From Diadema setosum (Eukaryota; Echinodermata; Echinoidea; Diadematoida; Diadematidae), in contig NC_092697.1 in NCBI RefSeq assembly GCF_964275005.1, forward strand, positions 14,305,327 to 14,369,326: DNA of 64,000 nt, written 5' to 3'. The position numbers and the translations under genes were made by a program. Position 1 is the stretch's first letter. Every line of letters begins with the position of its first letter. Below, one piece after another: positions 1 through 63,449 of the stretch. The notes under the pieces were generated by a model. The model saw only the letters and a list, made by a program, of their open reading frames with translations, had not been told where the DNA came from and ran no database searches.

Positions 1-160
1 AGCGGTGCGTTGGGATACCAGTGGCGATGGTATGTCCGCTCTCGTAGGTATACATTATGCGAAATTGATGGCTCCTCTCGGCTATGGTTTTACGTACGTG
101 TATATGATGCAAGGAAGGGCCACGTTTTGTTTTTGAGGAGTAAATTACCGTCCACGGCAC

Positions 161-485
161 ATGGAAACCCACCACCGCTTTGTTCTTCTCAAGCACCTGG
201 AGAGCATCTCCCGACACATCGACCCGGCGAAGGTTGCGGCCTCTCTCGCCGATGACCATGGGGTCCTGCCCGCCATTCTCCGGGAGGACGTTGCCAGGCA
301 ACCGTCTCCCAGGCAGCAAGCGTTCCGCCTGGTGGAGCTGGTGGTGTCGTGCGGGCCGCAAGCTTTCGAAGCGCTCTGCAGCGCTCTGACTACTCAGGGC
401 CAAGAGAAATTAGTTCAGACCATCCGACAGGCGGAGAACGACACAAGAGTGGCAGATCCAGCCGTCCTGAGACAGCTTCGGAAAG
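161..485 (+). CDS. Exon 1 of the CARD/Ubl gene: first CARD-like domain
   Basis: The ATG at 161 is the first in frame after a TGA at 134-136. The exon encodes 108 codons plus one base and ends at CGGAAAG|GTAACC. Regularly spaced hydrophobics give a six-helix death-fold pattern: RFVLLKHLESISRHID, then VAASLADDHGVLPAILREDV, RQQAFRLVELVVSCGPQAF and EALCSALTTQGQEKLVQTI. The 'G.QAFEALC.AL' stretch is typical of helices 4-5 of a CARD. Base composition is far more GC-rich than the flanking intron. An upstream non-coding first exon may lie outside the window. Confidence 0.82.
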
Positions 486-3400: not shown

Positions 3401-6400
3401 CTTGACGTGCCCCTGTTTGTCACTAGGAGAGACTCTGGCTTTGTTGATTTTACAGGTTGGCAGTGTGCCAAATTCTTTCTTCGATGTGTAATGTCATTTT
3501 TCGTAACAAATTCGATTATTAGGTAAACCAACACGGAGTATAATCACTAATTTATATCAAACGAAAAAAGACACCAAAATAGCAGAATATAATATATAAG
3601 TTTGTTTTTGCTGGAAATTTAAAAGAATACGTATACCTAGTATATACCTACGACCAAGATCACTTTAGTGTCAGACTGTGCAGAAACATTATGAATGTAA
3701 ATCCGGGTCCTTGTGTATTGATGGATAGCTATACAGTATTTCATCACCGAAAGTTTTATTCGTGATAGACTCGATATGTTTCATGAACCTAATGGCGGAG
3801 GTGCTCATTAAATTAAACACACTTCGCTGACTCCATTACCATAATGATATATTTACCTCCGATGATTAAAATGAAGATGTTAGCTCATCAAAGCATCCTC
3901 GTAGTCACTAAAGTACATGGTATCTAAACCGGATCCCTCTTCTACCCATCCTCCACTACTGCCCTATCTTGTTCGTACTCTTCTTCTGCCTTCCACTGCC
4001 TGTTCGTCCTCCTCGTTCTTCCCCCATCCTCCTAACCTCCTCCTCCTCCCAATCCTTGCCCTCGTCCTTGTCCTCCTCTTCCTCATCCTCATCCTCTTCT
4101 TCCTCTTCCAGCTGCTCATCCTCCTCTTTCTCATCCTCATCCTCTTCTTCCTCCAGCTCCCCATCCTCCTCTTTCTCATCCTTATCCTCTTCTTCCTCTT
4201 CCAGCTCCTCATCTACCTCTTTCTCATCCTCATCCTCTTCTTCCTCCAGCTCCCCGTCCTCCTCTTCCTCATCCTCATCCTCTCTTCCTCTTCCAGCTCC
4301 TCATCCTCCTCTTTCTCATCCTCATCCTCTTCTTCCCCTTCCAGCTCCCCATCCTCCTCTTTCTCATCCTCATCCTCTTCTTCCCCTTCCAGCTCCTCAT
4401 CCTCCTCTTTCTCATCCTCATCCTCTTCTTCCCCTTCCAGCTCCCCATCCTCCTCTTCCTCATCCTCATCCTCTTCTTCCTCTTCCAGCTCCTCCTCCTC
4501 TTTCTCATCCTCATCCTCTTCTTCCTCTTCCAGCTCCTCATCCTCCTCTTTCTCATCCTCATCCTCTTCTTCCTCCAGCTCCCCATCCTCCTCTTTCTCA
4601 TCCTCATCCTCTTCTTCCCCTTCCAGCTCCCCATCCTCCTCTTTCTCATCCTCATCCTCTTCTTCCCCTTCCAGCTCCCCATCCTCCTCTTCCTCATCCT
4701 CATCCTCTTCTTCCTCTTCCAGCTCCTCCTCCTCTTTCTCATCCTCATCCTCTTCTTCCTCTTCCAGCTCCTCATCCTCCTCTTTCTCATCCTCATCCTC
4801 TTCTTCCTCCAGCTCCCCATCCTCCTCTTTCTCATCCTCATCCTCTTCTTCCCCTTCCAGCTCCCCATCCTCCTCTTCCTCATCCTCATCCTCTTCTTCC
4901 TCTTCCAGCTGCTCATCCTCCTCTTTCTCATCCTCATCCTCTTCTTCCTCCAGCTCCCCATCCTCCTCTTTCTCATCCTTATCCTCTTCTTCCTCTTCCA
5001 GCTCCTCATCTACCTCTTTCTCATCCTCATCCTCTTCTTCCTCCAGCTCCCCATCCTCCTCTTCCTCATCCTCATCCTCTCTTCCTCTTCCAGCTCCTCA
5101 TCCTCCTCTTTCTCATCCTCATCCTCTTCTTCCTCCAGCTCCCCATCCTCCTCTTTCTCATGCTCATCCTCTTCTTCCTCCAGCTCCTCATCCTCCTCTC
5201 TCTCATCCTCATCCTCTTCTTCCTCCAGCTCCTCATCTTCCTCTTTCTCATCCTCATCCTCCTCTTTATCTCCATCTCTTCCTAGTTCCTCTACCTTCTC
5301 CTCTTCCTCCCGCAAACAACCTCAAATTGGCAACACGGATGTAGAATTTAATAATAGAAACATAACGTTGCCATGGCAATCAAAGCCACAATGACAACGT
5401 ATCGACAGTTGCTGTTTTTTTTTTTTCATGACTGTTGTATGTTGATGTGAGAGACCAAATGTTTTACGCTAATTAAGTGGGACGCGCCAGATCGCATATA
5501 CAGCTGGCAATCTCGGGTCTTGCAAACTTTTATCAGTAGCGGCGCAGTCTTTTTTTAAAATCATCTGATAATATGCGCTATAGGATATGAAAAAATTAAG
5601 AATAAATGAATGAATGGAAAATAATGCTAATGAAAAAAAAAATGAATGCAAAAAGTATAATGCTTATCATACACACGCATACAGATACAGATCGATCAAG
5701 AATAGGCCTATAACTTGTTGATGTGCCAATAGTAGCGTTGTCACCCTGGCAACGGCTAAGCCTGAATTAAATTGGGTCAGGGATGAGATTGCAAGAAGAA
5801 TTATCAACAATTATAGGCTTTCAATAATAAGGTTCTCTTTCACACCTTTCGAAATCAAATTTATCGCGATTGTTATCAACGGAGGTGAGAATATCTTCCG
5901 CTCAGTTTAACTCAGCACACATGGAATCTTTGCTTTCTACAAAACCCGATAATTTGTGGTGAGTGATGAGTTGATTAAATTTTCGCACGACGGTCTAAGG
6001 TTGATTTTTCCCGCAATGAAGTTCCTATGAAGATCAGTCTCTATAGAGTTAGTTGAGCGGAATAAATAAGTGAACAGAAACCACATCGATATAGAGCTGT
6101 GATAATGGGCGTTGAAAAAAAGAAGGTCCTCTTATAAATTGCCGAACTATTTTCATGCTTTCCCATTCAGCCGTTTACCGACGCGGAATAATAATCTCGA
6201 ACTTATTGCATCCGGAATTCGAAAAGTTGCAAACTGACACTCTCCCTGCAATATCGCGAGCAAAAGTAAGCTTATAATATCTCCACTTTGTAAACCATGT
6301 CATCCAAGTCTGTTAGTTAGCGCACCGTAGGCCTACACCGCGAAAGTAACTTGACAGTAAAGGCAGGATCCCACGGGATTTCCAATGAGGATGATAGCAG

Positions 6401-6588
6401 TCTTTTTTTAAGCTTTGGAAAGGTGCCAGCGTTGTTAGGGAAGGGATTATGCACGAATGCACCCTTCCACACACACTCATACCCGTATACTTTTGTCCAT
6501 ACAGATAGAGAACAAAAAATCTTAACATACACATAACGGCTATACTTACGCAATACTGTTGTACACACCACACACGTATAAATAAATG

Positions 6589-6673
<85 letters not shown>

Positions 6674-9600: not shown

Positions 9601-11451
9601 AGGTAATTTGAATGCTCCAAAATGAATTTGAATGAAAAGATTATAAAATTGAAATACCGAACATGCCGTCTAGGCTAAATTGTGCTAAATTGAATGCAGC
9701 AATTAGGAATTGGACTGAAAAAAGTGCGAAATTGGCCGGGAAAACCTATATTAAAGTTATTATTGAAAACTGCGAATAAAGTGTATTGGTGGAGTGTGCA
9801 TATTGCTGGGAATTTTTACTCAGCCGAGTAATTTTGCCAGTGTTCTGAGAGAAGAAAATATGAGAAAGCACAGTCATCTTGACATTCAAATTAATCCTTA
9901 ATCGTCGTATTTCAACATTGAACAAAAATATTCTTCTTAATTTGGGTCTTAAAAGAAAGCAGAAGAATTCCATACATCAGAACCACTCTGGAATGACATA
10001 TTTTGATAGTCACGTTGATTCTCAGTTATCATGCTTATAGCAACATGCATAAAATGAGTAATCAAATCTGAAAATCAGAGAAAATTTACTTTTATCGGAA
10101 AACATTTTTATGCTTCATTTATTGGTTTATTATGAATATCATACCTTTGCTTGAAATTGGTAGAATTGCAGGAGTTTTACAGAGTCAAAGATTAAAATTA
10201 TCACACACAAACACACACACATACGCTAAGCACAAACAAGCAAAAAACACCAGATACTAACTTGACAAAATCGACTTTTCATCTATAATAATGTAAAGAA
10301 ACCTGAATAATACATTCAATGAACTTTTGCATGTAAATGGAGGTGTATAAGAAGAAAAGAAACATGTACCATGGCAATGTACAACAATGCTTAGACCTAA
10401 TTGAATAATACGACAAGCTCTATGTTGTCTTTTCTTTTTCCACTTTGAAAACTGAATACCCGTACATTTTACGCATAGATGACCAATAGATAGTGTATGA
10501 ATATCACAAATTAAATGTTATCTTGATTGATTTTGCATTTAACTCCAGTTTTGATGAAAGTGAAAGGCTTCATATAACATGTAACCTATAGAAATCTCTC
10601 TCATCTATTATCATTTCGCGATTGGTCATAATCATATATTTCTACGCAGAGTTTTATGACATTGTCAATATTTTTTTTAAGATAAAGAAAATAAATGTGT
10701 ACTATTTTAAGCCTGATTTTGTATTGCTGTATATCTCTTGTATGTCTATCATGTTTATGTATCTATGTTATACGTGTGCTTTGTATGTGTATAACGTATC
10801 GATGTAACCGGGTATGCATGCAAACAAAACAAATTTCCAGAAACAGACAATAAAATCGAATTGAATTGAATTGAATTGAATTGAATTGAATTTGCTTTTT
10901 ACGCAACGCTTCTTGCCAACACTGAATGACTCGATTCATAAATAGCACTTGTCTCGCGCCCTTGCTCTTTGTAAATTGAATTTTGCGGAGAAACGGCGGA
11001 ATAAAGCTCATCTGAATTTTGGGGCATCACCGCTCATCGCTCACATTGATAGCGCATTGACAATAATACAGGTCACGTGATCAAACGACCTCGATAACAG
11101 GCTGTGGCTTTCATTTCTCATGAGGATGCATGCAGTCAGGGTTATGCTACTTCATCACAGTGTTGAATGATGTAGATATACATAATGAGACATGACTGTG
11201 ACCTATGGTGAATGGGTCTTTTGGGTCACGTGACCGTGCAATTATCTACCTCATCGCGCACTCAGTAAAATGTGGTCGTGCATTATACAACCAATCGATC
11301 GCTGTCGCACTTGAACTCGTTGATGTTTATTCGGGTTATATGAGACCCGTTACGCAGCCAACAAGAGCGCTTCGTCCACGGGTTTTCACTGTTCCATGTG
11401 CACATTACTGCGGTGATATAATGTACAGGCCTATTGTTGCATTGTAGCGTG

Positions 11452-11482
<31 letters not shown>

Positions 11483-12041: not shown

Positions 12042-12096
<55 letters not shown>

Positions 12097-14432: not shown

Positions 14433-14476
<44 letters not shown>

Positions 14477-17400
14477 AGGGGGAGTGAGAAGGGGGGGGGG
14501 GGGGTAAGGAAGAGAACGGGACGGGTGATTTGAGTGGAACGAGGACATCAAAAAAAAAAAAATGAAAGGGATGCAATGGTTCGTAGGTGTCGTCCGAGAA
14601 GTCAGCGTAGCCCGTGTTTCAAGTTTGAAATATTCATTCGATTCCATTCAATTCAATTATTCAGTTTAATTATTTCTTTATTCCAAAACATGGTCAGTGG
14701 TGTGTCCCAGAGCTTATCAATTGCTATGGTAACATTGTCATAATTCTATTCACAATTAGCTGTATAGGGATTGCAGTGACTAAATACTAAGATATATAAA
14801 ATGTGAACGATAATTATGATAAGATTGTTTCTTGACTAAACCGTCTAGAGATATGGTTTATTGACAAAAACAGTGATATCTCCTTTAATATATTTTAAGC
14901 TTTAAACATTGCGAAATTTTTATATGATCGGATTTTTGTGATACAACTGACCTACACATACAACATATGCATCAAATGTTTTTGTTTGTTTGATAGATAC
15001 TTTATTTTCTGCAAATCAGTATACATAAGTTACATAATCATGAACATGTGGAAAACATACAAAGCAAATTTAAAACAGAGTTGTTTGACTTGCATAAACA
15101 ACGATATAAAAGGAAATTAAAGATACAATATACAGTATGCATGTCTATGCAGCAGGGATTACAATAACAATTGTCGTTAAGAAGCGATTTGGCAGAGGGC
15201 CGCCATTGTAAGCATTGCTTGAAAGGATGGCCGGCCCGAGGAAAAGGTAGGCACGTACTAGATTCGTAACAATACAAATTCTGCTGCGAAGATTGCAGGG
15301 GAAAATAAAGTTAAATGTGTGATGGTGGTGAATGTGCGTGCAAGTGCAAGTGCTTGAAAGTGCACAAGGGCAGATAGGCTGGAATTTAGAATAATAGAAT
15401 TGGTTTTCTGAAAGAGGGAACGATATGCGATGTGATAACTATAGAACATATTTAAAATCAGTGCTTCCAATGGTAAACGGTACCTTTATAAGACTTGTGT
15501 AATATACTAGTATCTTATTGAAACTTCTATTTTCAGGAAAATGCAAAAGCCTCCATTAGGTGACAAAAATTAATGTTTGCTGCATCTACGCAGGACATAA
15601 TTATTTGATACATACCTTGTGTGCGTGCATGGCGTTTGTGTATGTGACTACGTGTGTGGGCGGGCTTGTGTGTGTGTGTAAGTACACCACATGCAACGTT
15701 TACAGGCTATCATGACAGACTGAACATTGCTTTTGAATATTTGATGAACTTATTGATACTGGTATAACCGTTTCTGTCAAAGTAATTTTTTTAAAAAGCC
15801 ACACAATACATAGCGATATATTTGAGAATGGTTAGCACTGGTCATTAAACATGTTAAAAGTTATTCGAGCCTCATGTCCACACAAACGTGTCGCGACTTA
15901 CCTTGACGTTTATCACGGAACCTTTCAACAATTTTATTCGATTTTAGTGGGGTTTGTTTCTCACGTTTCACTGCAAATTGCAAACAGTGAGGGTAAACGA
16001 ATGCAACTTTTCCTCCTCACGTTCAGTGTTTGAGTCTCGTCGAGACTATTTGACTTGTTCCCATGGCAACGGTATACCATTGTTCAGAACTTTGCATGCA
16101 GTCTTTGTTTGTTTGTTTAATAGATACTTTATTTTCTGCAAATCAACAGATCAATCAGCAAATCAATATACATAAGGCACATGATCATGAATATGTGGAA
16201 AATATACAAAATAGATTCAAAACAGAGTCGTTTGACTTGCGTAAACAAAGATATAAAAGGTAATTAATGATACAATATACAGTATGCATGTCTATGCAGC
16301 GGGGATTACAACAATTATAATTATGGAGCGATAATGCAGAGGGCCGCCATTGTAAGCATAGCTTGAAAAGATGGCCGGCCAGAGGAAAAGGTAGGGGAGT
16401 GTACTGGTAATACTACAATACAATACAGATTCTGCTGCGAAGATAGCAGGGGAAAAACGTGATGGTGGTGGATGTGCGTGCAAGTGCTAGAAAGTGCAGA
16501 AGGGCAGATATGCTGGAATGTAGAATAATCGAATTGGTTTTTGCTGAAAAAGGGAACGGTATGCGATGTTGCTATTTGGGAGACCAACATTAATCATATA
16601 AATTATTTGTTTTTAATTTGTATTTGAAGTATACTGTAATAAAATGTGCTTCTTTAAGTTTGCTTTAAATGAAAACAAGGAGGCACATTGTTTCAACTCC
16701 TCAGGAAGAGTGTTCCATGTATCCGGACCGTGATGTCTAATCGATTTTTGAGCAAGTAAAAGCTTTGGATTAGTTAAATGAAAATCATGGGAACGACGGG
16801 TTGGGTATGAATGAATATGGTCATTGGTTACTAAGGCATTATGAAAAAATGGTAATAAATTTCGAGTGTGTTTATACATAAATATAGCAGTTAGATATAT
16901 ATGTATGTCATGGGCTTTTAAAGTTTTTAGGCGATGAAATATAGGATCGGTGTGAGCCAAAAAATTTGAGTGTGTGCATATACGAAGAGCCTTTTTCTGA
17001 AGAATAAAAATTGTATTCAATTTACTTTTGCTACAGTTGCCCCATACAATATTGCAATACATTACATATGGTAAAAATAAAGTGTTATATAACATTATTA
17101 AAGTTTGATCATTAATCAAATACTTTATTCTCCTTAAAACACCAGTTGTTTTAGATATTGCTGTAGTAATATTCTGCGCATGAGTATTCCAAGTTAAATT
17201 GCTATCTAGGGTCACTCCTAGAAACTTGGTTGAGTGTTTCTCAGCAATGTTTATACCATCAATATAAATACTTTTGGGAAGGGTGGGTTGGGATTGAAGA
17301 GTATGAAAATATATAAAACATGTCTTATCAATATTCAATGAAAGCTTGTTACTTCTAAACCATTTCGAAATATTACCTAATTCCATATTAAGTGTATCAA

Positions 17401-20400
17401 TCAGTGTTGCAATATCCTTATGAGAATAAAAAACGTTAGTGTCGTCTGCAAATAAGATGAAGTTCAAACGAGGGGAGCAATTGGTGATGTCATTAATGTA
17501 AATCAAAAAAAGTAGGGGACCGAGGATAGATCCCTGAGGGACACCACATGACACGTTAGAATATAATGAGTGACTAGATTTAAATGCAACATATTGTTTG
17601 CGATGACTTAGATAACTTCTGAACCATGACAAAGTAATCCCTCTCACGCCATAATTCTGTAATTTTCCAAGTAAAATGTCATGATCAATAGTGTCAAATG
17701 CCTTACTAAGATCCATAAAAACTCCAATTATATGTTCTTTTTTACTAAGCGCATCAATAATATTATCGACAGATTTGATTATAGCATAATCGGTAGAAAA
17801 TCCTTTCCTAAAACCAAACTGATTCGTATTCAATATATCATTTCCAATCATAAACGAGTAAAGACGCTTGTAAACTACTTTTTCTAAGATTTTCGATAGA
17901 ACAGGCAACAATGAGATGGGTCTATAATTTTTCACCATTAATGGATTTTCTCTTTTATAGATGGGGATAACTTTGGCGATTTTAAAAGAGTCTGGAAACT
18001 TGCCATTAAGTAGGGATAGATTGAATATATGGGTGAGAGGGGCTGCTAGGGGGTAAATTATCTTTTTCAATAAATTCACCCTCAAATTATCGGGCCCACA
18101 GGATTTACTACATTTCAAAAGTCGAACAATATCAATAATTTCAGATTCATTAATTGGAGTAAAAAACAAAGAATTTTGATTATTTTCAGATAAATATTCT
18201 TTATAATTTTTTATATCATTTATGGGAATAGATGCTGCTAAAGAAGGACCAACATTAACAAAAAAATTATTAAAAATATTTGCAATTTGGTCAGGATTAG
18301 TGATAACATTATCATTATGAGTAATACTATCAGGACATTCCATAGGTTTCTTCTTAAGTATTTCATTAACAGTCCGCCAAAGAGCACTTTTATCATCCTT
18401 ATTAGATTCGAGTTTATTTGAAATATATGATTTACGTGAAACTCGAATTAAAGTAGTTAATTTATTTCTATATGTTTTATACCTTTTCACATTTTCAGGA
18501 GTGGGTTTTCTCAGAGATATCTTATAAAGACGGTTTCGAGTAAGAATGGCATGTATAAGACCTTGAGTAATCCAGGGTTGCCGGGCTCTTTTCCTTCCAT
18601 TTCTCTTTGTAGTTAAAGGAATATGTTTGTCATAATAATCTAATAATTTTTGTAAAAAAATTTCATAAGAAGAATCAACGTCTTGGAGTTCAAAGACGTC
18701 ATCCCATTGTTCTTCAAATAAATCTTGATTCAATGAATCAATACTTTGTGGTGTTTCATTTCTATACATTTTCAAGTATTGTTTGGGTTGGCGGCGTATT
18801 GGGGTTGTTACAGATTTGTCTTTAATCATAAAAATCGGTAGATGATCAGATATGTCTGAATAAAGAATGCCGTTCGTACAGGTTTCAGTAATGACATTAG
18901 ACAGTATATTATCTATTAATGTTTTACTATGGGTGTTATTGTTTATTCTGGTGGGTTTATTGATGTGGGGATGCAGTGAGTTGGAAAGTAATATGTCATG
19001 AAAATGGGTGGGTTGTAATAAATCTATATTGTAATCTCCCATCAAAAAAATTGATTTTCTCTCTCCAAGAATTTCATTAGCACATTGATCGAAATTGTCA
19101 AAAAAAGATTGAATATCATTTTGCGGAGGACGGTAGATGGTACCAACTATAATATTTTTCTCATTGTCATTTAAAATTTCAATAAATAAGCTTTCTGCTC
19201 CTTGAATATGCAAATCAGTTCGAATTCTGAACTTAATTTGATTATTAACATACATGGCAACCCCACCTCCTATGCCATGCTTTCTGTCATTACGAATAAA
19301 ATTGTAATTGTCAATGCCAAACAGGTCCGGGGAATTGGAGTGCAACCATGTTTCGGTAATTCCTATAACGGAAAATGGAAAATCATTGAGAGAATTTAGA
19401 AATAATTCAAACAATTCAAAGTTTCTATTCAAACTCCTTGAATTAAAATGAATTAAACTAAAATTAGCACAAATCTGATTTGCCTTATTGACAAAAAATT
19501 GACTGTTAAATTCATTAATAGTGAAATACTGACTTGTGTGGTTGACTAGCTGTTGGTCATCTATTCCAAAATCAGAATCCATTTACAATGAGTAACATTA
19601 CGTGATCGCAGCATATCATGGTGCAACGGGAAGTGTAGTGCACATCGTATACACGGGGTGTATACGATGAGGTGCATCGGTGCGTGTTGTGCTGTAACAA
19701 ACTATAGAGGAGCGCTTGAAATGTAATTATTGACATGATCTACAGGACTGCAGAGCATAGACACACAAAAACACAAATTCAAATAATATGCTACACTTTA
19801 GGGGTGACCTAGCAAGTAGTGTGACTTACACATAATGAAAAATAAACAGTATCATTATGTCAATACAACCTCCTTTCTGAAAGGAATTTGTCATTTTTAC
19901 AATATTCTTGTCTGACATTATAGAATGAGTCGAGATGGAATCGGGTGAAATAAAAGATAAAGAAATAAAGACAGACTCCAGAAAAGGGGGGGGGGGGTGG
20001 ACAAGAGAAATCTGGTTTCGGTATAGCCGTGTATATAATGCGGGTAGAGAAGAAAGGGAGGATATGGAGGCAGATACCGGAGGGAAGATGAGAATCTGAG
20101 AGCTATATAGGGTAGGATACGGGTAGATAAGACATTAAGCTGTGAAGACAAAGCATGAAAGAAGAGAAGAACTGGGCAGAACTGGTTGTGATACAGCAGA
20201 TTGATAGCTGCTGTGGTCACTGAAAACGGGAGGGTACGGTGTTTAAATTTGAAGTCCTTAACAACTATTTTAACTAACAATCATTCATAACAAAAGCAAT
20301 GACAAGGTAATCACACAATGACGTAACAGCGTAGGACGGCTATACAGTAAAAACATTCTTGCTAACAAGCAATTAAACAAGTGATACATCGACTTCAGTT

Positions 20401-25733: not shown

Positions 25734-25771
<38 letters not shown>

Positions 25772-28681
25772 AGAGAAACGGAAATGGACTCTTACTAACG
25801 TTTTAGCTAATTGCCACCGTCATGCTCTAAACACCACAACCTATCAAGCACCACAAAACAGGCCTAATCGTTGCAATTTTTAGCATCCCTCGTCTCAGCT
25901 TGGAGCTACCTATAAGAAGAATTAAAAGTTTATGTGATATAAATCCGGCTTTGAAATAGCTGATATATCCACACACAAAAAAAAACCACAGTAAAACAAA
26001 GTGGTCGTATAATAAAAGGTTGGTCCCATCTTTTATTATGACCTCTTATTGATTCCTCTTAGAATTGTATGTTCTTTGATATTTCGTATAATGGTTTCTA
26101 ATAACTCGCAAAAAGTTAAAATCGCCATCTCAATCGACACCATACCATCCCTTTAAACGTTGTGTCCATGCCCAAATGACATAAAAAATGTTTCATTGTC
26201 TGCACTTCCATTCCTTGTAGGTAAAAACCATTCAACATCCCCTCCTCGCTTACTTTTACCTATTGTTAGAATTAGTTTTTTTTTTTAAGGTCACTATCCT
26301 GGACGAAATGATACTGACGATGCCGATCTTGTGCATATTTCCTATTCTAGTGGCCATTTTTGGCGCTAAGTTATGCAATGTTACTTATATTGATTTCTGT
26401 TTCACATTTTTACATTTCGTACAAAAACTGAAATTCGTTTTAATGCTCCTGGAGCATGAGCAGTTCTAAGACACCGTCCTTTCAAAATTGTTTGTATCTT
26501 TTTCATGACAATAAATCTGATGATTGTGACAACGATTATAAAAGTAATCGCAACAATAATTGTAATGATTACAGCGTTATCATGACTAATGGCAGTTCCA
26601 AGGAAAGAAGCAACGATAGAAATTGAGCTATTTGCAGTATACAACACGGCCGCGGCGTCACGTTTTGAAAAGTGGGGTTGGGGTAGTTTATATTTCTGGT
26701 GCCACTTCCCTCTCGTACAAGTTGCAATCGGCTTCTAATCGACATCGACATCGACTAACAAGCAAAACAAAAATAAGAAGTGGTTATGAACAAGTTTTCC
26801 CTTCTTTTCTTTTTAGTAGGCCTGCATTGTATTTGCACCTGTTACTACCTGAAAATGGAATCATACTACTGCCTTTCATTTTGTTGATGTTTTCGTTGTT
26901 GCTTCCTCCGACAGCAACCTCAAACTTGCCGATTCCTCGCTCGTACGCCGATGTATGCCGAAACAGCGCTCAGGCATTCACGAACGACGTTTGGGTGGAA
27001 CACGTGATCCCGATCCTCAGGCCGCCGCTCGACTTGACCGAATCCACCGCCCAGAGAGTCGCCGACGAGAAGACGCGACAAGGCAGGGCCGAGGTGTTTC
27101 ATGATTGGCTGGTTCGGCGGATCAGTGCGCATGGGCACATCGCCTTCTTCGCCCTTCTTGACGCCTTGCAGATAACGTATCCACATGTGGCGGAGGAATA
27201 CTGGGAGACATTGACCACAATCGTCATCACAAAACCGGATCCAAATATGGGTGAGAATCATTATTATTTTAAAGCATCGAGAATTCATGCCGTCTTCAAA
27301 TTGTTATGTGTCTACGCGGATCATTCTCATCTCTCTTTCAGGCGCGCGGAGCATTTATCATTATTTCTTTATCTGAACTTTGTACAAACAATTCAGTAGG
27401 AACTATTTTACACAGTGTGTATTTATAACCATATTTATGTTTATTTATTAAGGAAGAACTAGTGGACGTTGCAGTCGTTGATTAATTGCCTTTAATGATG
27501 CTTTCGACATTTTTAAGGGTCTTCGTCAGGGCTTGGCACGTGAAAATAACAAAAAGCAACCAATTTGCAACAAAACTTTAACAGAATAAGGCAAAAACAA
27601 AAGAAAACCAAAAGAAAAAGAAAACAGCAACATGACGTAATTCGACATTGACTACACCGCAAAGCAGCAATATATGACATACATTGACATGTACGGCGGT
27701 GTAAGCAATAGGAGAGCAATATGGCATAAATACACATCTGCAAAAGTTATAATATCAATGTATGTTACATTGCTGTTCTGGTGTAGAAAACAGGGGCCGC
27801 GGAACGTTTTTCAGTGTAGGGGGGGGGGGGGGGCTGCGGGACCGGGGGATCAGAGGGGGGTGGCAAAGGTCAAGACCCCCCCCCCAAAAAAAAAGTGTGG
27901 GGTGGCTGCAGCCCCCCAGCCCCCCGCTTCCGCGGCCCCTGTAAAACTCACAGACTGCATGCTATACTTTCTGCTTTACATTCTGTGTTTACAGGTAGCC
28001 AGAGCAATAGGCAAAAGTCTTACGCCATCTACGATGCTGCGTAACGACAAACGATCATATTTATATCGTGACGACAAACCTGACTGACGTCACAATTAAT
28101 TTCACTCAGCGCGATAAAGTGCATACCACTTTGCGTTGTCGTCAATATTGTGGCAGCCTGGCAGGGCGACGCGATTTGCCCAGGTACTTCTGGGTTAATC
28201 GTTAGTTGAACAATGTGCCACATATAAAATGAAAAGAAAAAAAGGGGGACATTCCGGTTCGCTAATATCGCGATGCACCATTGATTGACAAACGGATGCT
28301 GCTGAAAAGCCGGCCCAAGTCATGCAAGTCACTCGTTGATAACAAAATACACCAGTGACATCAACCTACACTCTATGAATAAAGTAGTTGTGGTGTCAAA
28401 AGATTTCATGAAAATTGCATGCATACCTCCCACTGACATAAAAACAGAGGGATTTGTGATATACGATCGGCCAGGCTGACGCTTAGCTACAGGTGGCCTT
28501 CATGTGCAAGAAATGAAGGCATGGCTTATTTTCATGTATATGAGATATAGGCTATATATCACATCAAAAGGAAATTAAAGAAGTCATATTCGTATAAAGG
28601 GGCCCCAAGTGCTGACCTTAGTTGTGGAGATCAATCAATCATCGCGTCAAACAGAGGATGCTTTTCATGATGGCATTTAAT

Positions 28682-28736
<55 letters not shown>

Positions 28737-31700
28737 GGCCTATACATATTTTTGAGGGGGTTGTCTTCTGTCCTGTTGTTTGTTTCATTTCATTGCTGTT
28801 GGTATTGCTTGGTTTCAGAAGATTGAATATTCTGGTGCTAGTCAAAAGATAAACTGAAATCGGTATTCGTTGTGTATTTCGATTGCCATCTGAAGATTTC
28901 GTTTGATATTTTTTCAAAATCGTTTGTGTGTGTGTGTGTGTGTGTGTGACATATACCCATCTGATTCTTTGTCGGTCTGGCTGTATGTTCATTCTTTTTC
29001 AAAAAAATGATAGTATCTTTTCCTTTCCTCGCGCTTTGGGCCAACGTATTTAGGTTTATATATCATGCATCCATCCACGTGTCTGGCTATTGCAAACCAT
29101 GCAAACTACTTCAAACAAGAGTTGAGTGGTGGTACACCAATCTCAACCACATGAATGGTTATCATTGTATATACTCAGCAAATTCCGTAATGCAACACAA
29201 TTGCGAAAAACAGGTGACTTCTTTTCCTTCATGCTTGGGTTGTTAGTAATACGCCACTTAGACCCGTTAATCAGGGAGGTCTCTTCCCACCTCTCTGCGT
29301 TAATATACTATCACGCCAATGTCGCTCACGCATCCTTAATTACCTAAACGACAGTGCGTATAGTACAAGTGTGATGACATATGTCTCGATATTGCCGTTT
29401 TAATAGTGGTTTTTCCCAGAAAATGATTATTGCTCCGTTTTCCCTATCAACGTTTTACCTTTCAGCTTCAAGGCTGACCGGGTCGAAGGGATCGAGAAAC
29501 GTGAATGGAGCAAAGCCGCGATCAAATCCTAAAAGTGAGTTTTGTGACTTACATCTCTCTGTCATGTATAGCTATGACTGAAAAGTCATATTAAGAAAAT
29601 TGATGATCTATGAAGTTAAGATATCTGTGTCGTATCGAGTAATACCAGACAGTCTTAAAGGTACATGGTCCCGGTGTTTTAGTCAAATGCGTACGCGGGC
29701 GCACGGCGCAAGTTTCCTGTAGAGACCTACGCTATCGACTCCTCTTTGGCGCTTACGCTGTGGCCCACTTCCCCGAGTCCGAAGAAGTCCGATTCACTGA
29801 AGTCAGTGGTCCGATCACAGTTCGGCTCATGATTCGGTTGAGGGGGATGACAGCTTTAGCAAACTTCTTTTGTGATGTCATAATAACAAGCACATATGCA
29901 CGCACCCTGGCATTACTACAGACTGCGCGATGCGCAGAGAAGACCACGAAGGCAACGTTACTTAGCAAAACCTACGCACTTTACTCTTGATGACAGCTCA
30001 ACTTCGGTTATCTTCGTATCAATGCTAACGGTGATCGGCAGCGGCAGTATCATCAACAGCGCCCTCTACACTACCGGGACTATGCACCTTTAATATGATT
30101 TTGATCTTTATGTGGGGCAACAATGTCCTTCAGTGTAAACTTGGAAGATAATTTATCCAGTTACTCATGTCATCTACAGAGCAGGATAAGATTCATAGGA
30201 TGAATACGAGCTGTCTTCACAAACGAAAATATATAAATGAATCATAGTTACTTCGGGGCGGAAATGACGTGTGATGAGAAAGTAAGAGATAAATGGCAGA
30301 GATAATAGGTTCAGGAAAAAACAAAGTATATATACATAATATCAGGGCTCGACATTAGCGTTGGCCAGGGACTACTAAAAATTTATGTCGGGCCAACAAA
30401 CTTTCAAAGAGCATATCTTTTGCCGTGGCCCAATTTTTTTTTTTAATTTTTTTTTTTATTTATTTTTTTTTTTTTGGGGGGGGGGGGGTCAGGCTAATAA
30501 GATTCATACTAAATTGCTGTTTTTCTTTTTCCTTTGAGTCACTTCTTTTTCGGGTCACCAACATTTGAATTTAATTATTTTATTCTCCAGAACGGGCCAC
30601 CAGCGCAATAATAATGATAATAATAATAATAATGTTGAGCAATGTTATATATAACATATACCCACAAAATGACACCAATATCTGTGCAATTCCAATTTGT
30701 GTCATTCGCAGGTGATCTATCGTCCAACGGGAAACTACCTCGTGACTCGGAGAGCAACGATGCCGACTATCACTCGCAGCTTGACCGAGCTGTTGAGGTC
30801 ATCGGTGAGGCGAACTCAACGATCAGGAGGATGGAAGACCGCGTGAAGACACTGGAGACAGAGAAAGGCGACTGGGAGTCAAAGATGAAGGTGGCGCTCC
30901 GTGAATCCTACAGCTTGAGGACGGAACTGGACACCTTGCGGAAGGAGAAGCAGGCCAAGCACGATATGGACCTGAAGGCAAAGCGCGCCCAAGAGCGACA
31001 GCTGAAGAACCTGCAGGAAGAGATTGAGAGCAAGGAATCCCTGATGGCCGACAGGGAGATCGAGCTGCGACGAAGGGAGCTCGAAGTCGACCAGAGCATC
31101 ATGAAGGTGAGGAAGCAGCAGAATGACGTGGAGAAACAGCTGATCGAGGTTCTGGAGAAGGAAAAGGCCTTCGAGGGCCAATTGCACGACCAATCTCGGA
31201 AGGACGAGGAGCTGAAGCGGCGAGACCGGGCCCTCACCGTCCGTGAATCCGTCATCGCCGACAAGGAGGATGTGTTGGTGAAGAACATCGAAGACGTCAA
31301 GATGAAAGAAGTCTCTCAGAAGAAGACACAAGGCGACCTGCAGAAAAAACGTGACAGTCTTGACGACATGAAGCGAAAGAACGAAGAGGTCGCTCTGAAG
31401 CTTGCTGACAGGAAGAAGGCACTGGACTCGAAGGAAAAGGAACTAGAAATCACGCTGATCGCACTGAAAAGGGACGAGGCGGACCTGTTAGAAAAGGAGG
31501 AAAGACTAGACCTCCTTGAGGAACAGTTGCAACTAAGGCAGAGTGATATACGAGAGAAGGAAATAGAGTTGGATAGGAAAGTCCGGGATGCCGATGCCTT
31601 TGCAAGGGAGAAGCGGGAGTTTGCACTTGAGAAGCAAAAGTGGTCGGCAGAAGCAGCCAGGATTCGCAATGAGTTGGATATCGAACGGAAGACCCTGAGG

Positions 31701-33356
31701 GAAAGGGAGCTTCAGCTGAAAACCAAGGAGCGAGAGTTTCAAATTAGAGAAAAGGAGTGGCGATCTGTTAAGTCTGCTCTAGACAAGCACCTTTATGACC
31801 AGGAGAAACTTGAGCGATCGATTAAAGCCATCGAAATGGAGCAGCACCGAATAGAGATGGAACAGAATGAAAGGCAGAGTGCAATAGAGAAAGAAAGAGA
31901 AGAGAAAGATCAGCACGACAAGTTGATGTCATCGCTCAACGCCAAGGAACAGCAAATGATCAAGAGGATCAACGAAATTCAGAGTAAGGAGAGGAATATC
32001 AAATCAAGGGAGAGGAGACTGAAGGATGATGAGACCAATATAAGGAAACGTGAACAGCAGCTGAAAATGAGAGAAGAACAACGGTCAAAAGACGGGGAAC
32101 AGGATATGTCTCTAGAAGACATATCGGAGACACAGACACCTTCATTCAGGCAACCAAGAAAACCATTTTTTCACACCCCTCTTGACCAACGCTCAACACC
32201 AGAGAGTGGGTTCTCTGACGGACATTCTGGCGAGTACAGAATCCTTCAGAGAGGTATTACTAGCGCGCATCATCGGAACCAGGCGTTCACCATCAAGGCA
32301 GGCAGTGTTCGCACTGTAAGTGAGATGAAGTCGCTCTTGATGCAGAAAGAAGGAATACCAGTTGCTTGGCAACAGTATTGCTTCAACGGTAAAGCGTTAT
32401 CGGACACATCCGCCGTGCCTCCGCCAGAAACCCTCGCCAACGGGATTTTAGACCTCAAGTTGGCTATCCCTCAAGGTAACCTCACCCTCGTCGTCAGGAT
32501 GAACAGCGCCATCTCGCGTAAAATCGAGTTTGATGACGCCGAAACGATTGCAGCCGCCAAGACAAGGATCTACAAATCGGAGGGTATCCCGCCCCATCAA
32601 CAGAATCTCTTCTACGGAGAGATGGAGCTGATGGACAAATTCCATCTGCGTGACTACAACGTCCAGGTGGGTTCGGAACTCTTCCTGAGGTTACGCTACG
32701 ACGTCTTCGTGGTCATTTCACATGACCGGCTCCTGGAGATGACCGTTGAGGACCTTGACACAGTGGGTTCCCTTAAGGCCATGATATTCGAAGAGACTCA
32801 CATACCTGTGGACCATCAGGTCGTAGCCTACGGTGCCACCACCATGAACAACCATCGTCCATTGGCACACTACCGCATCACCGAGGGATCTAGAATCTTC
32901 GTTGCCTACGTCATCCCCATCGTCATGGAGCCGCCGATGAAGGAGACTTTCACGGTCACCATCAATCTTCAGACGGATGGCAAGACGATCAAACGAATGA
33001 TCGGCAAGTTCCGGGAGTTCCATCCGCCGCAGATGAACCTGGTGCATCATGGCAGGCTCCTGGACGACAACGTGCCCATAGTCGAGCAGGTTGTACATGG
33101 TGGCACAATCCAGCTCTATCGCCGCAACATACTGGTACTCGACGCGAGCGGCACGCTCCTGCTCGACGATGTGCAGCCATGGCACTACGTAGCCAAGATC
33201 AAGGAGATCATCTCTCGGAAGACGGGGCTCCAGACCCGACATCTGCATCTGATGCACGGCGACGTGGAGCTCAAGACCGTCAACAGGGCGGTCAAGTACT
33301 TCGGCGTTAAGCGAGCCGACGTGCTCGTCCTGAGGACGGAAGCTAAGGTGTTGTAG
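161..33356 (+). CDS. Tandem-CARD, coiled-coil, five-ubiquitin-like-domain scaffold protein (complete, 4 exons, 1,124 aa)
   Basis: Join of 161-485, 26915-27250, 29466-29534 and 30712-33356. All three introns are phase 1 with GT/AG ends and the sum is 3,375 nt, giving 1,124 residues and a TAG stop. Visible order: CARD-like domain 1 (about 2-95), CARD-like domain 2 (about 112-215), short linker, long charged coiled coil (about 262-706), a Pro/Ser/Thr linker, then five consecutive ubiquitin-like (Ubl) folds at about 766-828, 833-906, 906-980, 987-1048 and 1049-1124. CARDs nucleate homotypic death-fold filaments upstream of NF-kB or caspases, and CARD plus coiled coil recalls CARD9/CARMA adaptors; the poly-Ubl tail is not part of those. 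No signal peptide, membrane segment or catalytic domain is seen, so a cytosolic scaffold is inferred. I know no named gene of this order. The domain calls are by eye; the exon chain is well supported by phase. Confidence 0.8.
486..3000. other. Start of the 26.4-kb intron 1: mostly unique AT-rich DNA
   Basis: No gene is seen. It contains a mixed T/G homopolymer run at about 743-780, a (CT)n tract at about 2122-2143 and a (TTTG)n run at about 2945-2975. Short open frames here have no coding character. Confidence 0.5.
2985..3415. repeat. Degenerate GAGCTCGTGGGC motif array with inverted symmetry
   Basis: On the right half the motif CTCGTGGGCTGTATGA and close variants repeat about every 16-17 bases between 3302 and 3395. 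On the left half the complement (CCCACAAGTTCGACACC, GGCCCACGAG, AAGAGCTCGACAC) occurs in the opposite sense. This looks like an old non-autonomous DNA element with reiterated subterminal motifs; its exact ends are unclear. Confidence 0.45.
3965..5300. repeat. 45-bp polypyrimidine minisatellite (about 1.3 kb)
   Basis: The + strand is almost pure C/T with A only in CATC/CAG positions. The unit is about 45 bases, alternating blocks like TCCTCCTCTTTCTCATCC, TCATCCTCTTCTTCC and TCTTCCAGCTCC, with units shortened by 3-6 bases. Long open frames on both strands (Ser/Pro-Leu on +, Glu/Asp/Lys/Arg on -) are by-products of the repeat, as no splice or start context supports a gene. A segment containing 4122-4300 recurs at 4905-5080, so higher-order duplication occurred. 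Confidence 0.85.
5331..6590. other. Intron 1, unique AT-rich sequence
   Basis: No gene, structural RNA or transposon end is seen. Confidence 0.4.
6592..6671. repeat. (TA)n/(TG)n compound microsatellite
   Basis: About 50 bases of TA followed by about 28 bases of TG. Confidence 0.95.
6687..7067. mobile_element. mariner/Tc1-type MITE, 381 bp
   Basis: The ends are imperfect inverted repeats: left CACAGTATGTCAAAAAAATT, right (complement) CACCATGCGTCCCAAAAAAA, both continuing TTACAA. A TA target duplication flanks each side (6685-6686, 7068-7069). It has no transposase ORF. Confidence 0.75.
7398..7501 (+). other. GC-rich island, possible alternative terminal exon
   Basis: A compact GC-rich stretch in AT-rich intron follows an AG (AATTTCAG) at 7397. 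Read in the phase that exon 1 would supply, it stays open for 33 codons and stops at TAA 7499-7501. An AATAAA (7496-7501) overlaps this stop. It could be an alternative last exon making a single-CARD short product, or chance. The acceptor tract is weak. Confidence 0.2.
7845..8080 (-). mobile_element. 3' end fragment of a non-LTR retrotransposon
   Basis: A (TTCAAG)n run at about 7845-7870 adjoins TTTATTTCCAATCAAAG and A/T-rich sequence. This is the layout of a CR1/L2-like 3' UTR ending in a short tandem tail, in - orientation. The inner boundary is uncertain. Confidence 0.4.
8549..9750 (+). mobile_element. DNA transposon, IS630/Tc1-like derivative with reiterated subterminal motifs
   Basis: Terminal inverted repeats are nearly perfect over about 35 bases (left TATAGGTTTTCCCGGCCAAT, right its complement). 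About 300 bases inside each end are filled with variants of TTCATTCAAATTCGC, in opposite senses at the two ends. A TA target duplication is plausible. The centre contains the start of a transposase-like frame (9073). The interior is largely lost, so it is non-autonomous. Confidence 0.75.
9073..9201 (+). pseudogene. Transposase N-terminal remnant (42 codons)
   Basis: Encodes MAARVRYRRISQENRERI followed by IEAFEGNNLD and a short unrelated tail to TAA. The 'R.RISQE.RERI..AFEG' start resembles the helix-turn-helix N terminus of IS630/Tc1-like transposases of invertebrates. The rest of the gene, including any DDE domain, is absent. Confidence 0.5.
9751..11448. other. Intron 1, no gene seen
   Basis: AT-rich unique sequence with a short CA-rich run near 10204 and a (GAATT)n pentamer repeat at about 10857-10892. 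Confidence 0.4.
11449..12100. repeat. Cluster of microsatellites: (GA)n, (GT)n, (CT)n, (TA)n
   Basis: GA/G-run at 11449-11500, GT at about 11507-11545, CT at about 11690-11717, and TA/CA tracts at about 11720-11755, 11855-11880 and 11995-12095. A short direct repeat (CTACTTTTCTAG) occurs at 11883 and 11980. Confidence 0.85.
12980..13266. mobile_element. Hairpin MITE (family H), interrupted by a LINE end
   Basis: The left arm GGGCCCGTTTCATAAAACTT and right arm AACAAGTTTCATGAAATGG are inverted. The interior matches the copy at 35588 once the insert at 13027-13161 is ignored, sharing CTACTGAAATCCTTGCATCT and GCTGAGAGCAAATTTGTCA. Confidence 0.7.
13027..13161 (-). mobile_element. 135-bp LINE 3' fragment nested in the MITE
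   Basis: Flanked by a 7-bp target duplication ATAGTTG (13020-13026, 13162-13168). The sequence TTTATTGATCATCAAAC...GCAGCCGAATGGCTGAATTG looks like a CR1-like 3' UTR. Confidence 0.65.
13399..13824 (+). mobile_element. tRNA-derived SINE
   Basis: The first ~75 bases look tRNA-like, with an A-box-like TAGTTTGACTCAGACGG and a B box GGATTCGATTCC (13454-13465). A ~300-bp body follows, including GCACGTGAAAGATCCCGC, which resembles a conserved core found in many animal SINEs. The tail is (ACAA)n at about 13787-13824. A 90-codon open frame across it is not a gene. Confidence 0.65.
13825..14977. other. Intron 1, no gene seen
   Basis: AT-rich sequence with a (GA)n/G-run block at about 14418-14505. Confidence 0.4.
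14980..15445 (-). mobile_element. Truncated 3' UTR copy of the LINE at 16.1-19.6 kb
   Basis: Closely matches 16106-16572 base for base with scattered changes and small indels: it begins TTTGTTTGTTTGATAGATAC, shares GCAGAGGGCCGCCATTGTAA and ends at GGGAACGATATGCGATGT. The match stops about 40 bases short of the LINE stop codon, so this is a 5'-truncated insertion or a non-autonomous element using the same 3' end. Confidence 0.75.
16106..19620 (-). mobile_element. CR1/L2-group LINE, antisense in intron 1
   Basis: Consists of a full ORF2 (16613-19582) and a ~500-bp 3' UTR (16106-16612) ending in a CAAA-type tail. The 5' boundary is not visible; no ORF1 was recognised upstream to about 20.3 kb. 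The open ORF points to recent insertion. Confidence 0.85.
16613..19582 (-). CDS. LINE ORF2: APE endonuclease and reverse transcriptase, 989 aa
   Basis: One uninterrupted frame. An apurinic-type endonuclease occupies residues about 38-255: HFNSRSLN (N47), TETW (E77), GDYN (D183, N185) and SDISDHLP (D246, H247). The reverse transcriptase spans about 490-770: NYRPISLLP, NQFGFRKGFSTDYA, the first catalytic Asp in FMDLSKAFD (D624), VPQGSILGPLLF, and FADD (711-714). The C terminus has the conserved CR1/jockey-type segment with Y..I.WG and a basic helix; no RNase H domain is seen. All key catalytic residues are present, so the protein looks functional. The group assignment (CR1/L2 rather than another jockey clade) is from motif style only. 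Confidence 0.93.
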   Translation of the reverse strand: MDSDFGIDDQQLVNHTSQYFTINEFNSQFFVNKANQICANFSLIHFNSRSLNRNFELFELFLNSLNDFPFSVIGITETWLHSNSPDLFGIDNYNFIRNDRKHGIGGGVAMYVNNQIKFRIRTDLHIQGAESLFIEILNDNEKNIIVGTIYRPPQNDIQSFFDNFDQCANEILGERKSIFLMGDYNIDLLQPTHFHDILLSNSLHPHINKPTRINNNTHSKTLIDNILSNVITETCTNGILYSDISDHLPIFMIKDKSVTTPIRRQPKQYLKMYRNETPQSIDSLNQDLFEEQWDDVFELQDVDSSYEIFLQKLLDYYDKHIPLTTKRNGRKRARQPWITQGLIHAILTRNRLYKISLRKPTPENVKRYKTYRNKLTTLIRVSRKSYISNKLESNKDDKSALWRTVNEILKKKPMECPDSITHNDNVITNPDQIANIFNNFFVNVGPSLAASIPINDIKNYKEYLSENNQNSLFFTPINESEIIDIVRLLKCSKSCGPDNLRVNLLKKIIYPLAAPLTHIFNLSLLNGKFPDSFKIAKVIPIYKRENPLMVKNYRPISLLPVLSKILEKVVYKRLYSFMIGNDILNTNQFGFRKGFSTDYAIIKSVDNIIDALSKKEHIIGVFMDLSKAFDTIDHDILLGKLQNYGVRGITLSWFRSYLSHRKQYVAFKSSHSLYSNVSCGVPQGSILGPLLFLIYINDITNCSPRLNFILFADDTNVFYSHKDIATLIDTLNMELGNISKWFRSNKLSLNIDKTCFIYFHTLQSQPTLPKSIYIDGINIAEKHSTKFLGVTLDSNLTWNTHAQNITTAISKTTGVLRRIKYLINDQTLIMLYNTLFLPYVMYCNIVWGNCSKSKLNTIFILQKKALRICTHSNFLAHTDPIFHRLKTLKAHDIHIYLTAIFMYKHTRNLLPFFHNALVTNDHIHSYPTRRSHDFHLTNPKLLLAQKSIRHHGPDTWNTLPEELKQCASLFSFKANLKKHILLQYTSNTN
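19621..20357. other. Intron 1 between LINE and duplication, no gene seen
   Basis: May include the LINE 5' UTR. It has a G-run at about 19987 and AG-rich sequence around 20040-20110. Confidence 0.35.
20358..21042. repeat. Direct duplication, copy 1
   Basis: Matches 21728-22412 nearly throughout, sharing AGTGATACATCGACTTCAGT, AACACTTTGTTGGATGCGA and a 3' end GCAATAAAGAAAAATGAATA. Differences are few: single bases, the length of a T-run, and one 5-base insertion. Confidence 0.9.
21680..21726. repeat. Extra fragment of the duplication unit
   Basis: CAGGTCGTGCGTCGACCTCG...TTGTACAAACAGAT repeats the inner segment found at about 20488 and 21857, just before copy 2 begins. Confidence 0.7.
21728..22412. 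repeat. Direct duplication, copy 2
   Basis: Second copy, 1,370 bases after the first, in the same orientation. Confidence 0.9.
22413..23660. other. Intron 1, no gene seen
   Basis: Contains a (CA)n tract at about 22724-22750; otherwise unique AT-rich DNA. Confidence 0.4.
23664..23922. mobile_element. Palindromic element built of TTCGTTATTCCGAA motifs
   Basis: The ends are inverted (left TTCGTTATTCCGAAGG, right CCTTCGGAATAACGA). The body is at least eight variants of GTTCGTTAATCCGAA, itself near-palindromic. It is probably a non-autonomous DNA transposon. Confidence 0.65.
23925..25735. other. Intron 1, no gene seen
   Basis: Unique AT-rich sequence. Confidence 0.35.
25736..25772. repeat. (GA)n microsatellite
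   Basis: About 30 bases of pure GA. Confidence 0.95.
25900..26152. mobile_element. Partial TTAA-type MITE related to 45322-46077
   Basis: Shares the diverged blocks TTCCTCTTAGA...TATGTTCTTT and ...ATGGTTTCTAATAA with the larger copy. It has the same right end (CCATCTCAATCGACACCATA then CCATCCC) followed by TTAA. The left end is not found. Confidence 0.5.
26915..27250 (+). CDS. Exon 2 of the CARD/Ubl gene: second CARD-like domain
   Basis: The acceptor is CCTCCGACAG|CAACC and the donor ATATGG|GTGAGA. Phase 1 at both ends fits exons 1 and 3. The 112-residue product has a CARD pattern: WVEHVIPILRPPLDLT, STAQRVADEKTRQGRAEVF, HDWLVRRISAHGHIAFFALL, DALQITYPHVAEEYW. The 'G..AF.ALLDAL...YPHVAE' segment is the most recognisable. 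It shares little identity with the exon 1 domain, so the duplication, if it was one, is old. A CARD next to a CARD is seen in a few adaptors such as NOD2. Confidence 0.8.
27251..29465. other. Intron 2 of the CARD/Ubl gene
   Basis: Apart from the hAT-like MITE at 27791 it has a (TA)n tract at about 28684-28732 and (GT)n at about 28923-28948. Confidence 0.5.
27791..27941. mobile_element. Short hAT-like MITE, 151 bp
   Basis: Inverted ends CAGGGGCCGCGGAA and TTCCGCGGCCCCTG around G- and C-runs. The 8-bp flanks do not match clearly. Confidence 0.6.
29466..29534 (+). CDS. Exon 3 of the CARD/Ubl gene: short basic linker
   Basis: Sixty-nine bases between a pyrimidine-rich acceptor (TTTACCTTTCAG) and a consensus donor (AAAA|GTGAGT). 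It is phase 1 at both ends, so it could be skipped without breaking the frame. It encodes about 23 residues rich in Ser, Gly, Arg, Lys and Asn (ASRLTGSKGS...KPRSNPK), a flexible linker between the CARDs and the coiled coil. Its call rests on splice sites, phase and GC content only. Confidence 0.65.
29659..30089. mobile_element. TTAA-flanked MITE, 431 bp
   Basis: Left AGGTACATGGTCCCGG, right complement AGGTGCATAGTCCCGG, flanked by TTAA at 29655-29658 and 30090-30093. TTAA duplication is typical of piggyBac and Kolobok. It lies in intron 3. Confidence 0.75.
30345..30600. mobile_element. hAT MITE fragment
   Basis: Begins CAGGGCTCGACATTAGCG like the element at 53181 and shares GGCCAACAAAC and GGGCCACCAGCG blocks; a T-run and G-run sit inside. 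The right end is eroded. It ends about 110 bases before exon 4. Confidence 0.5.
30712..33356 (+). CDS. Exon 4 of the CARD/Ubl gene: coiled coil plus five ubiquitin-like domains
   Basis: A 2,645-base terminal exon after the acceptor GTCATTCGCAG. Residues about 262-706 are Glu/Lys/Arg/Leu-rich with heptad-like spacing (e.g. RRMEDRVKTLETEKG, KERELQIREKEW-type stretches), a long coiled coil. Residues about 710-765 are a polar linker. Then come five Ubl folds; the second is clearest, with EGIPPHQQNLFYGEMEL and LRDYNVQVGSELFLRLR closely tracking ubiquitin's EGIPPDQQ...LSDYNIQ...LHLVLRLR. None ends in the Gly-Gly needed for conjugation or cleavage. The stop is TAG at 33354-33356. All these domains share one exon although the CARD part is split over separate exons. 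Confidence 0.85.

Positions 33357-43695: not shown

Positions 43696-63449
<19,754 letters not shown>

Follow-up and report, generated by a model that had tools for sequence, protein, structure and literature searches.

Many innate-immune switches combine two halves, a CARD assembly and a ubiquitin chain, which E3 ligases normally couple once the assembly has formed. A locus in the long-spined sea urchin Diadema setosum raises the question of whether both halves can be carried by a single protein, and of what such a protein would do. Here, we describe this gene, which occupies positions 161 to 33,356 of a 64,000-nucleotide stretch of DNA (the window; NCBI RefSeq assembly GCF_964275005.1, contig NC_092697.1, positions 14,305,327 to 14,369,326 of the forward strand) and encodes two N-terminal CARDs, a long coiled coil and a row of five ubiquitin-like (Ubl) domains. 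Based on its gene structure, domain order, conservation and predicted folds, on the lack of a diglycine (GG) tail in its Ubls and, in echinoids, of the canonical ubiquitin patch, we propose, with a probability of about 0.5, that the protein is a scaffold nucleated by its CARDs and built on a coiled coil, with a non-conjugable Ubl row on which specific partners dock. All coordinates below are window positions.

The gene consists of four exons, with a stop codon in frame upstream of the start:

134..136, + strand: in-frame stop TGA, upstream of the ATG at 161
161..485, + strand: exon 1, start codon and CARD1, residues 1-108 (CARD fold about 2-93)
26915..27250, + strand: exon 2, CARD2, residues 109-220, symmetric (phase 1-1)
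29466..29534, + strand: exon 3, 69-nt basic Ser/Gly/Asn linker, residues about 221-243, symmetric (phase 1-1)
30712..33356, + strand: exon 4, coiled coil, linker, five Ubl modules and stop codon

Spliced together, the exons total 3,375 nt and encode 1,124 amino acids plus a stop, a product letter-for-letter the same as P0001, an NCBI entry for Diadema setosum labelled as uncharacterized, to which the translation of 30714-33353, used as a protein query, also led (1,124 aa, 100% identity). All three introns are in phase 1 with GT-AG borders (donors GTAACC, GTGAGA and GTGAGT; acceptors ending in CAG), the first spanning 26.4 kb. The initial annotation, made from the letters alone, had claimed four exons with agreeing phases and a product of 1,124 residues; its coordinates, exon count and length were right, as splicing and the identity to P0001 show, and the short third exon that it implied and did not list was located at 29466-29534. 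Because exons 2 and 3 are both phase 1-1, skipping either preserves the frame, and the sequence would permit in-frame isoforms lacking CARD2 or the linker. The final full codon of exon 2 is an ATG (27247-27249) at the exon 2/3 boundary, where Diadema, Lytechinus and S. purpuratus share the residues MAS.

In an exon-level scan, CARD1 passes the Pfam cut-off for PF00619 (E=1.9e-5; 25.0 bits vs 23.9), and CARD2 of Diadema falls under it (E=0.092). The CARD2 region matches PF00619 at E<=10 in all four scanned members of the family described below (best 2.8e-6), and its AlphaFold2 (AF2) model, built with five aligned sequences as input, has a predicted local distance difference test score (pLDDT) of 86.6; the best 22 entries in its structure comparison are all CARD structures bar one de novo design. 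CARD2 is therefore weak by sequence and, as modeled, folds confidently as a CARD, so that both of the CARDs originally claimed are upheld, the first over the Pfam cut-off and the second through family matches and the AF2 fold. Chance CARD-like helices were considered and rejected on the Pfam, profile-search, AF2 and structure-match results. Scanned whole against Pfam (E<=1), P0001 returned ubiquitin-type families only, with no CARD listed until the protein was scanned exon by exon, which may explain why the precomputed domains of P0001 include no CARD; the filter may be biased by the charged coiled coil. Under-annotation of this kind may also affect other proteins that combine CARDs with a long coiled coil. 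Profile searches place the sequences of CARD1 and CARD2 nearer Apaf-1, caspase-9 and RAIDD than CARD9. The two top rows for CARD1 are designed proteins, not natural CARDs, and RIG-I and CARD9/11 are absent from that list, an absence that alone does not exclude kinship. Within the full-length AF2 model, CARD1 matches Apaf-1, in a list crowded by ubiquitin that cannot rank CARD families.

Downstream of the CARDs and the linker, exon 4 encodes the following modules, with independent E-values (i-E) for the Ubls taken from our own profile of ubiquitin matches among the fetched proteins, Diadema's included, so that the values lean upward:

30768..32057, + strand: coiled coil, residues 263-692; heptad period, AF2 helices
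32232..32471, + strand: Ubl1, residues 751-830; i-E 1.5e-10; predicted strands and helix, pLDDT mostly about 60
32475..32699, + strand: Ubl2, residues 832-906; i-E 7.8e-21; the most conserved module across phyla
32700..32915, + strand: Ubl3, residues 907-978; i-E 1.1e-17; continuous predicted strand 899-913 from Ubl2
32916..33125, + strand: Ubl4, residues 979-1048; i-E 1.2e-5; beta-grasp pattern in the AF2 model
33126..33353, + strand: Ubl5, residues 1049-1124; i-E 4.1e-7; no GG tail

Residues 256-705 contain no proline, and their hydrophobicity spectrum at period 3.5 reaches 10.44, vs 2.88±1.49 for shuffled sequences (0/1000 as high); single 75-residue pieces give a weaker signal, reached in six pieces by 11 to 189 of 1000 shuffles. 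The full-length AF2 model has helices at 263-395, 413-533 and 540-692. The claimed coiled coil is borne out by this heptad of 3.50 residues, on which a single alpha-helix in its place was rejected. Five PF00240 stretches in Pfam provide a module count independent of our profile, and together with the five profile modules and the predicted folds they agree with the five Ubl domains first annotated.

Relatives were collected as 22 proteins from a search with the Ubl region and one from searches with the CARD region. Six of these 23 were assigned to a family defined here by CARD, CARD, coiled coil and 5-6 Ubls in that order:

P0001: Diadema setosum, 1,124 aa, complete
P0004: Lytechinus pictus, 1,152 aa, complete
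P0002: S. purpuratus, 916 aa, 'golgin subfamily A member 6-like', coiled coil and Ubls, no CARDs
P0003: on a 6-kb contig, coiled coil and Ubls, no CARDs
P0020: Ptychodera flava, 860 aa, 'polyubiquitin-C-like', CARD-CARD-short coiled coil-six Ubls
P0023: Saccoglossus kowalevskii, 877 aa, 'polyubiquitin-C-like', CARD-CARD-short coiled coil-six Ubls

The full architecture is present in four of the six (P0001, P0004, P0020 and P0023). An orthologue with the same order in another echinoderm, which had been suggested as a check on the architecture, thus exists in Lytechinus pictus, and the order is also found in two enteropneust hemichordates, which carry a sixth Ubl. The CARD-CARD blocks of Diadema and Ptychodera align over 221 residues (32%, E=3e-35), and a Ptychodera CARD query retrieves Saccoglossus P0023 at 69%. 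CARD identity is 63-64% in the single CARD-bearing echinoid pair and 30-32% to hemichordates, about equal to that of Ubl1 (61% and 31%, respectively). In hemichordates, conservation extends to the coil's start, with Smith-Waterman scores of 86 (Ptychodera) and 88 (Saccoglossus) vs shuffled maxima of 58 and 56; the Saccoglossus coil scores 51 against Diadema residues 591-690. The same order in Lytechinus pictus and two hemichordates indicates that the fusion is real and probably older than the split between the phyla, and by parsimony it was probably already present in the echinoderm-hemichordate common ancestor.

Searches requiring shared 5-residue words returned only P0001 and L. pictus for the P0001 CARD query (1,690 candidates), and only Ptychodera itself and Saccoglossus for the Ptychodera CARD query (2,402 candidates); since the Diadema query missed Ptychodera, these small counts do not show absence in other taxa. 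No members were found beyond echinoids and hemichordates, with sea stars, sea cucumbers, crinoids, amphioxus and molluscs outside the test. The precomputed domains of the 17 other Ubl-array proteins show no CARD, nor was a CARD among the families listed for the 11 of them that were rescanned whole (for P0005, 25 of 31 families), in a kind of scan that can miss CARDs, as in P0001. Among these arrays, P0008 (ENA contig, 1,263 aa) has twelve ubiquitin-family stretches and a C-terminal kinase (PF07714, E=1.9e-31, residues 1006-1257), and P0006 (ENA contig, 1,367 aa) has fourteen Ubl stretches and, by eye, a C-terminal coiled-coil-looking stretch. Ubl arrays with varied partner domains may form a broader, unnamed group.

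Aligning 32 Ubl modules of the family (20 echinoid, 12 hemichordate) shows core positions to be 93% hydrophobic in echinoids and hemichordates alike, with K27 in 32/32, which indicates that the ubiquitin fold is kept. None of the 32 (0/20 echinoid) has GG within its last 8 residues, so the usual conjugation or release is not expected. The hydrophobic patch at positions 8, 44 and 70 is found in 0/20 echinoid and 3/12 hemichordate modules, and both hemichordate Ubl2s read V8-V44-H68-V70 where ubiquitin has L-I-H-V. A pairwise-alignment control gives the patch in 0/11 echinoid modules, 3/10 hemichordate modules and 48/133 modules of the 17 other Ubl-array proteins; these tallies are counts of modules related to each other, with no statistical test, and letters at 68 and 70 shift between the alignment methods while the echinoid zero is unchanged. 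In a module tree, Ubl1 groups by position across phyla with support of 100/98, Ubl2 with 89/95 and Ubl3, weakly, with 68/79, indicating that, in contrast to the repeats of polyubiquitin, at least Ubl1 and Ubl2 (and probably Ubl3) were already distinct when the phyla diverged. Ubl2 averages 39% identity between echinoids and hemichordates, and its helix and next loop form the densest invariant block (14/19 positions, 855-873, in six rows). By our own comparison, nine of the 14 invariant positions are as in ubiquitin, and the family-specific A857, A858, R862, Y864 and H872 are candidate positions of a docking surface. Modules 2-3 and 3-4 are joined in the AF2 model by continuous predicted strands (899-913 and 971-982).

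From these features we propose the following mechanism. The two N-terminal CARDs would nucleate or join a CARD assembly, perhaps as a filament nucleus, and their sequence affinities point to partners of the Apaf-1, caspase-9, RAIDD and BCL10 kind, so that Apaf-1-, initiator-caspase- or BCL10-like partners seem more likely than CARD9-like ones. The coiled coil would oligomerise the chain and thereby set its valency. The C-terminal Ubl row (five modules in echinoids, six in hemichordates) would serve as a permanent docking rail with a separate surface on each module; it would not act as a generic ubiquitin chain and, without GG, would be neither conjugated nor released. Such a single-gene scaffold would probably be cytoplasmic, and may belong to an innate-immune or cell-death pathway. 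Bcl10 and a Bcl10-dependent paracaspase are present in hemichordates, according to an excerpt of PMC5978004, making a CARD pathway in which such a scaffold could act plausible in these animals; the paper also reports that the Saccoglossus paracaspase, poorly expressed, gave no NF-kB activation in human cells.

Several observations weigh against this proposal. Ubl4 and Ubl5 are not position-matched between phyla in the module tree, where echinoid Ubl5 joins hemichordate Ubl4 (89/90, with a long-branch warning), and their echinoid-hemichordate identity is 16-18%. The hemichordate coiled coil is much shorter (about 80 vs about 430 residues), and that of Ptychodera scores 83 against Diadema residues 591-690, nearly equal to its 86 at the coil start. 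Confidence in the full-length AF2 model is modest (mean pLDDT 64; predicted template modelling score 0.32), so that the match of CARD1 to Apaf-1 within it is only indicative. Lastly, the S. purpuratus model P0002 lacks CARDs and begins at the Met that corresponds to the one at the exon 2/3 boundary. The model may be truncated, or it may represent a genuine CARD-less isoform from an alternative start, in which case the CARDs would be optional.

The same S. purpuratus model bears on two explanations that do without a CARD scaffold altogether. That the CARD exons and the coiled-coil/Ubl exon belong to neighbouring genes would fit its lack of CARDs and the 26.4-kb first intron containing a long interspersed nuclear element (LINE), but the phase-1 splice sites agree, the spliced product is the NCBI model, and the fusion recurs in Lytechinus pictus and, within shorter proteins, in two hemichordates (all database protein models); a chimeric gene model is thus barely credible, and was rejected on the splice agreement and the domain order in relatives. 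Highly improbable, too, is a structural golgin- or cytoskeleton-like protein in which the CARDs are incidental or absent from the main isoform, as the name of the S. purpuratus record and the roughly 430 residues of coiled coil might suggest: that record is marked PREDICTED, no golgin domain is found in Pfam at E<=1, and the CARDs are about as conserved as Ubl1. By analogy with RIG-I, whose tandem CARDs (2CARD) are stabilised as a tetramer by K63-linked chains, the Ubl row could stabilise a twin-CARD tetramer in cis. This would be very unlikely, given that neither CARD profile search finds a RIG-I or MDA5 chain at E<=10, that the whole-protein Pfam scan finds no helicase or RNA-binding domain, and that echinoids are missing the ubiquitin patch.

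The remaining alternatives concern how the Ubl row is used. The initial annotation had suggested a scaffold that recruits chain-reading kinase complexes without an E3 ligase; a scaffold is plausible, and the chain mimicry is weakened in urchins by the absence of both patch and GG, with the patch retained at hemichordate Ubl2. As a cis-acting ubiquitin-chain mimic, the row would be read by chain binders of the NEMO/TAB/ABIN type. The head-to-tail arrangement of the Ubls, the V8-V44-H68-V70 of both hemichordate Ubl2s and the top Foldseek matches of the whole model (linear tetra- and tri-ubiquitin with HOIL-1L, ABIN1, optineurin and TNIP2) fit such a role, which has a precedent in the two tandem Ubls of human OASL, reported in an excerpt of PMC6019448 to mimic K63-linked polyubiquitin. 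It is nonetheless quite unlikely: no echinoid module has the patch by either alignment method, as against 48/133 in other arrays; the predicted strands run continuously between modules, unlike ubiquitin's flexible LRLRGG tail; and the root-mean-square deviation to the six best chains is 14.3-17.4 Å, indicating that only single folds match. An intramolecular switch, in which CARD assembly is released or locked as the Ubls, or partners bound to them, contend with the CARDs for the coiled coil, would take CARD9 as its model: there, a single ubiquitin conjugated to Lys125 uses its patch to displace the CARD from the coil (excerpt of PMC6624267). All three elements lie in one chain and the CARD-proximal segment of the coil is conserved across phyla, but the patch used in CARD9 is absent from echinoid Ubls and their long coiled coil keeps the two ends apart, which leaves this switch a tentative, rather unlikely possibility. 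A docking scaffold remains our preferred reading. A doubtful possibility for its origin is that a shared echinoderm/hemichordate ancestor built the ubiquitin step of a CARD signalosome into the scaffold itself, CARD assembly clustering a permanent, deubiquitinase-proof Ubl row in place of E3-built chains, with Ubl2 staying patch-bearing and chain-like in hemichordates and private docking surfaces arising in urchins.

Set beside known systems, the protein shares with CARD9 and CARD10/11/14 (CARMA) an N-terminal CARD followed by a coiled coil, and likely their use as an oligomeric CARD scaffold. This layout, noted in the initial annotation, stands, and the kinship that it implied is unsupported: the CARD-CC family has a single CARD, whereas exon 2 encodes a second one here; the Diadema CARD sequence is not closest to CARD9/10/11/14 among solved CARDs; and in place of the PDZ-SH3-GUK C-terminus of CARMA members, none of which is detected (Pfam E<=1, as for the absences below), there is the Ubl row. 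The protein would thus work somewhat like a CARD-CC adaptor, and both the number of its CARDs and their affinities place it outside that family. It has no NB-ARC, WD40, death or caspase domain of the apoptosome and PIDDosome adaptors (Apaf-1, caspase-9, RAIDD), and its tandem N-terminal CARDs, as in RIG-I/MDA5, come without the DExD/H helicase and C-terminal RNA-binding domain of those receptors. OASL and ISG15 are immune proteins with tandem Ubls, but have two Ubls and no CARD; OASL Ubls are not known to be conjugated and ISG15 carries a GG tail, and structure matches to Ubl2-3 include ISG15 and the chicken OASL tandem Ubl 7sbi. Polyubiquitin (UBB/UBC) shares the head-to-tail ubiquitin folds for which the hemichordate records were named, but has GG junctions and near-identical repeats; the family has neither, its modules diverge within each protein, it adds CARDs and a coiled coil, and in echinoids the canonical patch is missing. 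The C-terminal five-Ubl array of USP7, which serves as a docking rail, is a Foldseek match at 8-9% identity, although the Diadema protein has no deubiquitinase domain in Pfam.

No description of a CARD-CARD-coiled coil-Ubl protein appears in the titles and abstract starts among the matches listed from the open-licence PubMed Central literature, nor is one mentioned in the excerpt of the CARD-CC evolution paper (PMC5978004). If the proposal holds, both halves of the switch in one conserved chain would amount to ligase-free coupling; alternatively, it would show that Ubl rows can evolve from generic chains to dedicated docking rails. The family has been hidden behind the record names 'polyubiquitin-C-like', 'golgin subfamily A member 6-like' and 'uncharacterized', which can now be corrected, and the sea-urchin and acorn-worm genes are now directly testable.

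Elsewhere in the window, no tRNA was found, nor any Rfam match at gathering level. A 989-aa LINE-type open reading frame (ORF) with endonuclease and reverse transcriptase (16613-19582, - strand; RVT_1 E=2.6e-37) lies within intron 1. A pyrimidine-rich minisatellite of 93/48-bp period lies at 4071-5266, and several of its frames stay open for hundreds of codons, these long ORFs probably being low-complexity artefacts. A 306-aa Lys-rich ORF with no Pfam match at E<=1 (56651-57571, - strand) is possibly an exon of a nucleolar-type protein, and matches to the JMJD2A Tudor domain (E=1.2e-13) and to a PHD-like zinc finger (E=3.3e-11) at 44754-45146 and 46881-47198 (both - strand) mark probable downstream exons of a KDM4/JMJD2-like histone demethylase.
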